Assembly: GCF_016734815.1 (NCBI RefSeq)
Contig: NZ_JAERQF010000012.1
Span: forward strand, 1-64,000
Length of the DNA: 64,000 bases
Reading direction: 5' to 3'
Origin: Hymenobacter rubidus
GTDB taxonomy: Bacteria > Bacteroidota > Bacteroidia > Cytophagales > Hymenobacteraceae
The first letter of the stretch is position 1; each line of letters starts with the position of its first letter. Shown piece by piece: positions 8,218 to 14,418 of this stretch. The notes beneath the pieces are model-generated. The model ran no database searches. It was given only the letters and a program-made list of their open reading frames with translations, and was not told where the DNA came from. The position numbers and the translations under genes are program-made.

Positions 8218-8364
8218 TAGAGCGGTTTTGGGGTCGGTATACAGTCGATGGAAGTAGCGCGAACTGTGTAGTTCGCGTCTCTGCACAGATTGTAAACGTT
8301 GAAACGGCGCGGGCACGCGAACTACAAAGTTCGCGCTACTTCCATCGACTCCGAAACCGCTCTA
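8218..8364. repeat. Palindromic mobile-like element (AGAGCGG family), copy 1
   Basis: An element of about 147 bp with near-perfect inverted ends: TAGAGCGGTTTTGGGGTCGG at the left and CGACTCCGAAACCGCTCTA at the right. A second nested pair of arms is GAAGTAGCGCGAACT and GTTCGCGCTACTTCC. A second copy of the same design lies inside the DUF2809 gene at 13629-13773. Both copies are bounded by TA dinucleotides. No coding capacity is visible. It resembles a MITE or REP-type non-autonomous element; the mobilising enzyme is not in this window. Confidence 0.8.
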
Positions 8365-12198: not shown

Positions 12199-12308
12199 TT
12201 CACTGCGGCAGTGCGATGAACAAAACGCCGTCGAAACAGCGCCCCGCTGCGTTGCCAGAACGGGAATGCGGGCAAAATGCGCTATTTTTACTACAAACAA
12301 CCCACTTT

Positions 12309-13232
12309 ATGAAATCAGCTTTTTCCGCGGTTATTACCCGATACTTCGTATTGACGCTGCTGGCGGCGGCCGGACTCTTCGCAACGGCCTGCACGAAAGA
12401 TGCGCCTGAGGTCACCGATTACAGTGCAATTGACGATGGCATCATCAAGCAATACCTCTCCAGCCACAACATCACCACGGCTCAGCAACAGCTTTCCGGG
12501 CTCTACTTCCTGCCCGTTTCAACCAATGCCAACGCCACCAAGATAACCCCGGGCACCATCGTTTCGGTGTTCTATACGGCTCATTTGGTCGACGCCGCTG
12601 GCACGGTGTTCGATGCCTCGTCCCGCCACAACAACGTCCCCATCACCTTCGTCTCGGGCGGCGGCCAGCTGCTGCCGGGCTTCGAAGAAGGCATTTCCCT
12701 GATGCACATCGGCGACAAAGCCGAGCTGCTGATACCCTCCGCGCTGGCTTATGGGTCGTCTACCGCCGGCGGCGCCATCCCGGCCAATTCGGTGCTGCGC
12801 TTTGAAGTAGAAGTGGTCGACTACCAGGTTATCGACGACAATTTAATCAAAAACTACTTGACCACCAACAACATCACCACCGCCCAGAAACAGATTTCCG
12901 GTCTTTACTTTCTGCCCGTAACAACCAACGCGGGGGCCGTACACGCCGCCACCGGCAATACGGTTTCGGTGCTCTATACCGGCCATTTGCTCGATGCGGC
13001 CAGCACCGTATTCGATGCCTCGTCGCTGAACAACAACACCCCGATAACCTTCATTTTAGGCCGTGGCCAGGTAATTCCGGGCTTCGAAGAAGGCATTGCC
13101 CTGATGCACAAAGGCGACCGGGCCGAGCTGCTGCTGCCCTCGGCGCTGGCCTACGGGCCGCAGGGTTCATCCACCAAAATCGGCCCCAATGCCGTGCTGC
13201 GCTTCGAAGTGGAGCTGGTGGATGTGAAGTAG
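12309..13232 (+). CDS. Lipoprotein with two tandem FKBP-type peptidyl-prolyl isomerase domains
   Basis: A 307-residue predicted lipoprotein. The N-terminal signal ends in LFATAC, a plausible lipobox. Two homologous halves follow, each starting with a D-x-I-I-K-x-Y-L-x-x-x-N-I-T-T-A-Q leader and SGLYFLPV. The FKBP fold follows in each: VSVFYTAHLVDAAGTVFDAS and LLPGFEEGISLMHIGDKAELLIPSALAYG in the first half, and VSVLYTGHLLDAASTVFDAS, VIPGFEEGIALMHKGDRAELLLPSALAYG in the second. Active-site positions (Y, D, F, the GFEEGI loop, Y) are largely retained, though the first domain has YTAHL where YTGHL or YTGxL is usual. It probably assists folding in the periplasm or outer membrane. A single-domain paralogue lies at 13924. 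Confidence 0.9.
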   Translation: MKSAFSAVITRYFVLTLLAAAGLFATACTKDAPEVTDYSAIDDGIIKQYLSSHNITTAQQQLSGLYFLPVSTNANATKITPGTIVSVFYTAHLVDAAGTVFDASSRHNNVPITFVSGGGQLLPGFEEGISLMHIGDKAELLIPSALAYGSSTAGGAIPANSVLRFEVEVVDYQVIDDNLIKNYLTTNNITTAQKQISGLYFLPVTTNAGAVHAATGNTVSVLYTGHLLDAASTVFDASSLNNNTPITFILGRGQVIPGFEEGIALMHKGDRAELLLPSALAYGPQGSSTKIGPNAVLRFEVELVDVK

Positions 13233-13334: not shown

Positions 13335-13893
13335 ATGTCCTTGATGACTCTACAGCGTCCTTATTACCTCGGAGCGGCGCTTTTGCTGCTGGTCGAAGCG
13401 TCCATTGCGCTATTATTATTTGTGCATGACAGCTTTGTTCGGCCACACGGCGGCGACTTTCTGGCCGCTATTTTTCTCTTTTGCCTTCTGCGCAGCGTTT
13501 GGGCGTGGCCCGTTTTCAAACCGGAAGTCCTGACGTTATTACTGGCATATGCCGTTGAACTCTCGCAGTCTGTTCATCCGCTGCACTACGTGGGCTGGCA
13601 GCATTCTCAACTGGCTCGCGTGGTCTTACAGCGGTTTCGGAGTCGGTATACAGGCGCTGGAAGTAGCGCGAACTGTGTAGTTCGCGTCCCAGCACCATCT
13701 TATCGAAACGACTGGCGCGGGGGCACGAACTGCAAAGTTCGCGCTACGGTACACCGACCCCGAATCTGCTCTAGGCAGCCAGTTTGAGTGGGCCGACCTG
13801 CTGGCTTACACTGCAGGGGCCGGCTTTGCCGGCAGTTGCGCGGCCGTAACAGACCACAGTGCCCAACTCCGAGCGAAAATTTTTTCATCCTGA
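13335..13893 (+). pseudogene. DUF2809 membrane protein gene interrupted by a palindromic element
   Basis: The first part (from ATG 13335) encodes 98 residues with TM helices and DUF2809 motifs: IALLLFVHDSFVRPHGGDFLAAIFLFCLLRS, written as FVHDSFVRPHGGDFL then a TM helix, and LLAYAVELSQ, VGWQHSQLARVVL. It then runs into the palindromic element at 13629-13773. After the element, in a different frame, GSQFEWADLLAYTAGAGFAGSC continues up to a TGA at 13891-13893. In intact DUF2809 proteins the VVLG-x-x-F-x-W-x-DLLAY motif is continuous. Joining 13628 to 13774 restores an in-frame protein of about 137 residues, the usual family length. The insertion is 145 bp, hence the frame change. Confidence 0.85.
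13629..13773. mobile_element. Palindromic element (AGAGCGG family), copy 2, inserted in DUF2809 gene
   Basis: It has the same architecture as 8218-8364: left end CAGCGGTTTCGGAGTCGGTA, an inner arm GAAGTAGCGCGAACT, a partner arm AAGTTCGCGCTAC, and right end ACCCCGAATCTGCTCTA. It sits exactly between the codons TTA and GGC of the DUF2809 frame and is flanked by TA on both sides, compatible with a TA target duplication. Its right half is more diverged than that of copy 1. Confidence 0.8.
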
Positions 13894-13923: not shown

Positions 13924-14418
13924 ATGAAAAACCTGTTTTCCGCCAGCCTCATTCGCACGGCCTTGTTCCTGTTACCTCTTACAGCCGGCTTACTCACGAC
14001 GGCCTGCAAGAAGACGACGAAATCGGACGAGGAAATCATCAAAGAATACCTGGATACCAACAAGATAACGAATGCCCAACGACAAAGCTCCGGTCTATAC
14101 TACGTGCCTACCCTCACCGATGCCACCCAAGTTCAGGCTGTGGCGGGCAAAACGGTTTCGGTGCTCTACACCGGCATGCTGATGGATGGCACCGTATTCG
14201 ATGCCTCGGCGCAGCACGGCAACGTGCCCATCAGTTTTGTACTCGGACGCGGCAAAGTAATCGCGGGCTGGGACGAAGGCATCGCCCTGATGCACAAGGG
14301 CGACAAAGCCCAGTTGCTCATTCCTTCGGCCCTCGGCTACGGCTCAGCGGGTGCTCCGCCTTCTATTCCGGGCGATGCGGTACTGCGGTTCCAGGTCGAG
14401 CTGGTCGATGTGAAATAA
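13924..14418 (+). CDS. FKBP-type peptidyl-prolyl isomerase lipoprotein
   Basis: A 164-residue predicted lipoprotein: signal peptide ending LLTTAC (lipobox), then SDEEIIKEYLDTNKITNAQ and one FKBP domain with VSVLYTGMLMDGTVFDAS, VIAGWDEGIALMHKGDKAQLLIPSALGYG and VLRFQVELVDVK. The W in AGWDEGI corresponds to the conserved pocket tryptophan that the tandem paralogue at 12309 replaces with F. It ends just before a strong terminator at 14424-14459. It shares its leader with the two-domain gene upstream, so these are products of duplication on both sides of the DUF2809 gene. Confidence 0.92.
   Translation: MKNLFSASLIRTALFLLPLTAGLLTTACKKTTKSDEEIIKEYLDTNKITNAQRQSSGLYYVPTLTDATQVQAVAGKTVSVLYTGMLMDGTVFDASAQHGNVPISFVLGRGKVIAGWDEGIALMHKGDKAQLLIPSALGYGSAGAPPSIPGDAVLRFQVELVDVK

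Follow-up and report, generated by a model that had tools for sequence, protein, structure and literature searches.

The question raised by this locus is what kind of mobile element has split a DUF2809 gene of Hymenobacter rubidus, and what the insertion has meant for the gene product. In the window, i.e., the whole 64,000-nucleotide stretch of DNA that was analysed, the gene contains a 147-bp palindromic element in which terminal inverted repeats (TIRs) of IS630 type enclose two inverted REP units (a REPIN). We consider it likely, with a probability of about 0.8, that IS630-type ends with a captured REPIN were spread by DDE transposition and that one copy broke the DUF2809 gene. The features are as follows, in window coordinates.

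13335..13628, + strand: 5′ part of the DUF2809 gene, 98 codons from the start to the target TA (Pfam PF10990, E 1.2e-11)
13774..13893, + strand: 3′ part of the DUF2809 gene (GSQFEWADLLAYTAG... to stop), now out of frame; in frame only with 145 bp removed
13335..13787, + strand: present ORF, 98 native residues followed by 52 encoded by the element and the out-of-frame flank
13627..13773, + strand: composite element (IS630-type MITE with REPIN core), 147 bp with both TAs; copies aligned with flanks, borders from the reading frame
13627..13628, no strand: left TA target duplication (frame test with one, none and two TAs)
13772..13773, no strand: right TA target duplication (same test)
13627..13651, + strand: left TIR, 25 bp including the TA; pattern match with 2 mismatches, related TIRs at IS630 transposase loci
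13749..13773, − strand: right TIR, 25 bp including the TA; pattern match with 2 mismatches, related TIRs at IS630 transposase loci
13663..13686, + strand: REP unit 1 (GTAG foot plus CGCGAACT/AGTTCGCG hairpin), exact pattern match
13724..13747, − strand: REP unit 2, inverted arm forming the REPIN with unit 1
8218..8364, + strand: second composite element in the window, of another loop type (L022); sequence match, alignment and TIR pattern

The borders of the insertion could be read from the coding sequence. The present ORF, whose start is placed at an upstream TTG in the ORF list, meets no immediate closure; the shifted frame stays open across the whole element and ends at 13787. Excision of 13629-13773 (145 bp, 1 mod 3), which corresponds to the element and one TA, joined ...LARVVL to GSQFEWADLLAYTAGAG... 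/ GSQFEWADLLAYTAGAGFAG... with a stop at 13891-13893, and restored a DUF2809 protein with the conserved VLGSxFEWxDxLAYT motif. Removal of 147 bp, with no TA kept, gave VVWQPV followed by a stop, and removal of 143 bp, with both TAs kept, gave VVL followed by a stop. Since the motif common to the homologues reappears only when a single TA is left, one TA belongs to the target, and the TA duplication is shown by the coding sequence itself. The first-pass annotation had proposed that this excision rejoins VVL and restores DUF2809, that the insertion changes the frame, and that a TA duplication should be looked for. The frame test bore out the excision to the base, the net insert of 145 bp leaves the downstream half out of frame, and the frame demands exactly one TA in the empty site. 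The DUF2809 copy thus serves as a base-exact empty site in which the reading frame demonstrates target duplication.

The DUF2809 gene had a match in 24 of 61 genomes, including its own, and homologous loci were fetched for 19 of the remaining 23 (identity 43%–59%). The uninterrupted gene that the annotation had advised looking for in relatives was found at all 19 loci, which are ungapped across the insertion site; none of them carries the element at this place, whereas its presence in all relatives, with a conserved frame, is what the annotation would have counted against its own reading. No REP unit was detected at ≤ 4 mismatches in these 19 loci or in locus L179, and a scan of genome contigs for an empty site of the same species returned only one relative, a Hymenobacter MAG that was 44% identical. 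In one homologue from another species (L060; G012 C1, around 787147), a TGA stop lies within the same FEW motif. Since only 24 of 61 genomes have a match and this homologue contains a stop, the gene looks dispensable. Paired IS630-type ends are also present at L060, downstream of the homologue. In the window, DUF2809 is flanked by two FKBP-type isomerase genes (12297-13232, with two FKBP stretches, and 13924-14418).

With respect to the protein, the Pfam match lies before the break and covers profile positions 1-70 of 86. An ExxQ motif (ELSQ) is retained upstream of the break, and the conserved FEWADLLAYTAG segment downstream is lost. An excerpt of a study of the lipocone superfamily (PMC12419801) assigns DUF2809 to this superfamily (Skillet-DUF2809) and describes an ExxQ motif in helix 3 along with aspartate positions of the active site in helix 4. 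The window gene resembles this family, as excerpted, in its Pfam DUF2809 match and in ELSQ as the ExxQ, whereas it is broken before the segment that we take, by our own reading, for helix 4 with the predicted active-site aspartate, namely FEWADLLAYTAG. Because this conserved segment, taken for catalytic helix 4, is removed, loss of DUF2809 function is likely. The shift of frame, which takes off the C-terminal FEWADLLAYTAG part, would most likely have inactivated a dispensable lipocone-type membrane protein.

Alternatively, the gene might still be functional with the element as a tolerated tail, as the frame is open over the whole element and PMC3733652, in its available part, mentions palindromic insertions that keep the frame in Rickettsia ORFs. 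The Rickettsia palindromic elements described there are similar in that a palindromic insert lies inside a coding sequence; however, the window insert does not keep the frame (net 145 bp) and has IS630-type ends. With a net insert of 1 mod 3, all residues after VVL are replaced, and the lost segment is conserved in homologues and is, by our reading of the partly available PMC12419801, the helix with the active-site aspartate. A tolerated tail is therefore highly improbable, and inactivation of the DUF2809 protein remains the preferred reading. The disruption of DUF2809 is by itself ordinary; the part worth following is the composite nature of the element, together with the contrast between TIR-borne and free REPINs.

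The element consists of inverted arms at 13663-13697 and 13713-13747, giving a REPIN core at 13663-13747 between the two TIRs. The palindrome was stronger than expected by chance (DNA fold z = −5.7; equally good folds in 0 of 200 shuffles), and the only Rfam match on the hairpin was a plant miRNA at 22.3 bits against a cut-off of 88 (E 0.044). A search of the own genome with a 201-bp query returned 90 matches, many places matching on both strands owing to the palindrome. No plasmid copy of the element was matched. Among the fetched stretches, 56 distinct TIR-bearing copies from the own genome were collected; no transposase gene lies inside the window's 147 bp. The ends were TA/TA in 47 of these 56 copies, preceded by Y in 55 and followed by R in 54. 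As a rule, members of the IS630 family duplicate a TA target.

IS630 transposase genes (PF13358) were found at five places in the own genome. At one of them (L097), a pair of TIRs with a span of 1014 bp encloses two ORFs, 139 and 188 aa long, and this transposase had a match in 43 of 120 genomes of the genus. Across the genus, 30 IS630 transposase loci were fetched, one of which was L097 again. Paired related TIRs 942-1046 bp apart were present at 27 of the 30 loci at ≤ 7 mismatches (17 at ≤ 5 and 7 at ≤ 3); none of the 30 loci gave a pair with the reversed pattern or with any of twenty shuffled ones. Thus, the ends of the element resemble those of the 1-kb IS630 (Tc1/mariner-like) elements of the genus. 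At L133, for example, the ends are each 1 mismatch from the degenerate pattern, an A-run is visible by eye where the two ORFs meet, and the transposase has a DDE_3 domain (E 1.5e-31). Plasmid matches annotated as 'IS630 family transposase' occurred in Hymenobacter sp. BRD128 and H. canadensis. Counted by eye, the L097 TIRs agree with the window TIRs at no more than roughly 20 and 18 of 25 bases, so that the L097 transposase is a candidate mobiliser only. An IS5-type transposase was also considered as the source and rejected: the sole PF01609 locus (C55, L105/L116) with a TIR-like site close by had no second TIR at ≤ 5 mismatches.

The core is built of two inverted REPs of GTAGCGCGAACT type, with the form GTAG-CGCGAACT-nnnn-AGTTCGCG and GTAG at the foot of the hairpin. 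In the own genome, this pattern matched 122 times forward and 124 times in reverse at ≤ 2 mismatches (246 in total, with some units counted on both strands), and the reversed pattern matched 0 times. The element had a match (E ≤ 1e-8) in 59 of 120 genomes of the genus, including its own, often to the core alone. These features are shared with the GTAG-REPs and REPINs described in the available parts of PMC2817692, PMC3116915, PMC3733652 and PMC6006769, i.e., a GTAG foot, a hairpin, an inverted doublet and a high copy number.

REPINs are proposed to be moved by RAYT proteins (PMC3116915, as excerpted), and genes of this type were found with the same REPs in other Hymenobacter species. A first set of 50 Y1 loci comprised the 30 best Pfam matches, which were of IS200 type, and 20 picked weaker matches. 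REPs were present at 0 of the 30 IS200-type loci, and paired REPs lay on both sides at 7 of the 20 weaker ones, one of which had been chosen for an adjoining core match. With the RAYT of locus L245 as a query, 30 loci, including its own, were fetched. At ≥ 68% identity, the same REPs lay on either side of the RAYT at 11 of 12 loci, and these 11 include the seven from the Y1 set; among more distant RAYTs (56%–62% identity), REPs lay on both sides at 4 of 18 loci and not at the other 14. The L245 RAYT, with its motifs NHVH, WQ and YVVNNP, is similar to TnpAREP subclass 2.4, for which the excerpted table in PMC6006769 gives NH[IFV]H, WQ and YIxNNP in Cyanobacteria and Bacteroidetes; it differs in having V where the table has I, and the assignment is by motif reading only.

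In the own genome, a RAYT search at E ≤ 1e-5 gave one match, 29% identical and with no REPs nearby, and a Y1_Tnp search at E ≤ 1e-3 gave one match (L178) at a locus without these REPs. The latter was rejected as the cognate RAYT, with no REP unit at ≤ 5 mismatches in its 3345-bp locus and, by eye, another type of palindrome flanking it. A RAYT could have been missed because the assembly consists of 87 contigs. The window element is thus like GTAG-REPINs with a RAYT, as far as those are described in the excerpted sources, in that the repeats flank a RAYT, here in other Hymenobacter species; in contrast to them, no close RAYT was found in its own genome, and the copies that form families lie inside ends of DDE-transposon type.

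This last point was derived from a comparison of TIR-borne and free REPINs. From 100 exact REP units listed in the own genome, 67 places were obtained, of which 28 lie by a TIR at ≤ 3 mismatches and 39 do not. Twenty places were fetched as being without a strict TIR: six proved to be bordered by a diverged TIR, on one flank or on both, and at the other 14 no TIR was suitably positioned. The pooled cores were 49 TIR-borne and 20 free, with five one-ended cores left out and an artefact (L017) excluded from the free group. At ≥ 85% identity, 45 of 49 TIR-borne cores had a partner loop of the same class, as against 0 of 20 free REPINs (40 versus 0 at 90%, 33 versus 0 at 95%), a comparison that favours related TIR-borne copies because some of these had been collected for their similarity to the window's element; by eye, only 9 of 47 have the window's loop type. 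In 1000 subsamples of 20 TIR-borne cores, a mean of 16.8 and a minimum of 11 had a partner. Flanking inverted repeats exceeding 40 shuffles were detected at 0 of 20 free cores, in a test of limited sensitivity that also missed two of six TIR-borne controls (L010 and L025). The loop families inside IS630-type ends, with none among the sampled free REPINs, provide a natural setting in which to ask whether hitchhiking can let such repeats persist longer than their own enzyme.

These results bear on an alternative in which a plain REPIN was inserted by a RAYT and the flanking inverted repeats are merely the outer part of its palindrome. The core is indeed of RAYT type, and free copies without IS630-type TIRs occur in the own and other genomes. 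However, the frame-proven TA duplication and the YTAR flanks at the outer ends contradict this explanation, the TIRs are akin to IS630 ends, the own genome yielded no close RAYT, and the sampled free REPINs form no loop families; it appears scarcely tenable. Instead, we prefer a sequence of events in which a REPIN made of inverted GTAG-REPs, with its cognate RAYT in other Hymenobacter species, would have been captured between IS630-type ends. Judging from which cores form families, it would then have been multiplied, as a passenger between these ends, by an IS630 DDE transposase acting in trans. The miniature transposon would have entered a YTAR target in DUF2809 with duplication of the TA, as the frame and the homologues indicate. 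The annotation had described a REP/MITE-type element in a coding sequence: the entry of a mobile palindromic element holds, and the identification needs to be changed, as the element is neither a REP nor a MITE alone but an IS630-type MITE carrying a GTAG-REPIN.

The same arrangement was found beyond H. rubidus. Of 20 places picked from other genomes for near full-length matches, 16, which belong to nine genomes, had a REPIN between paired TIRs, with ≤ 8 mismatches allowed per end and weak cases such as L318 doubtful; the remaining four had one end or none. The spacers between TIR and core differ between genomes, the left one being about 1 base in L303 and about 20 in L315. Because of this difference, several events joining TIRs and cores are suggested, although one event followed by change would also fit. 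Among 20 core-match places from 12 genomes, none had paired IS630-type ends at ≤ 8 mismatches, and two (L168 and L170) had a one-sided end at 7 mismatches. At two places, L161 (G103 C9:412520-412910) and L174 (G050 C3:4427680-4428070), the core lies between a different inverted repeat, of TTGCTGTTACGCA type, which pairs at 13 of 13 positions in L174 and 15 of 17 in L161 and beats all 40 shuffles; the inverted repeat at L170 beats its 40 shuffles by one point only. The TTGCTGTTACGCA-type repeat is regarded here as a second kind of transposon end carrying a REPIN.

An ordinary IS630 MITE in which a REP-like core arose, with free REPINs being MITEs that lost their ends, would be another explanation. 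IS630-derived MITEs are known in several bacteria (PMC2817692, in the available part), and many intact TIR-bearing copies are present in the own genome. On the other hand, in other species the same core is present on either side of RAYT genes, many genomes of the genus contain free cores, the core lies between unrelated inverted repeats in two other genomes (L161 and L174), and the TIR-core spacers vary. These observations make such an origin improbable and argue for the capture of a REPIN between IS630-type ends. The excerpted PMC2817692 names Correia elements and RUP as IS630-derived MITEs, which the window element resembles in being short and non-coding, with IS630-related inverted ends and a TA target duplication; in contrast to their description in that excerpt, it holds a complete RAYT-type REPIN as cargo.

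A TIR-borne core (L018) and a free REPIN (L191) have identical loops (39 of 39 bases), and the whole cores differ at 2 of 87 positions. Because of this identity, cores appear to have been exchanged or captured. A broader proposal, to which we give even odds, is that REPINs can change their mobilising enzyme: those lacking their HUH-type RAYT may have been captured repeatedly in Hymenobacter, by transposon ends of more than one type, and may now be maintained and amplified by DDE cut-and-paste, with cores still exchanged between free and transposon-borne forms. In the open-licence literature, no REP or MITE report was found for Hymenobacter, and a search by title and start of the abstract found no report of a REPIN inside IS630-type or MITE ends. 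A 2013 survey, in its available part, lists GTAG repeats in Proteobacteria, Cyanobacteria, Chloroflexi and PVC, and names Bacteroidetes only for CGTC repeats.

The first-pass annotation had also remarked that such elements are seen mostly between genes, which agrees with the insertion context: among 29 element places with long flanks (30 rows, with one artefact spanning two neighbouring elements dropped), only that of the window could be placed in a Pfam-recognised gene, in a test restricted to joined-flank ORFs of at least 100 aa. There were 16 such ORFs, 14 of which were sent to Pfam; the other two were the window's own ORF, whose left part was tested separately, and L286_1031, which is the artefact just mentioned. 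A Pfam domain was seen in only one of the 14 (L293, residues 82-393), and it lies wholly on one side of the site. At the remaining 14 of the 29 places, the joined flanks contained no ORF of at least 100 aa.

Several copies showed rearrangements. Relative to their ends, L014-L017 carry the central loop in the orientation opposite to that in window 13627-13773 (orientation by eye, loop identity computed), as recombination between the inverted REP arms would give. Five copies of 90-100 bp (L027, L038, L046, L124 and L125) keep both IS630-type ends and a single REP hairpin, and apparently arose through loss of the loop and one REP. In L023 (G000 C11:81170-82020, element 253-599), a second MITE-like element with GGACTTACGCAGTTG ends and GCCCCAGCGGGGCG palindromes is nested inside the first, and by eye the nested type of palindrome also occurs around the genome's own IS200-type Y1 gene (L178).
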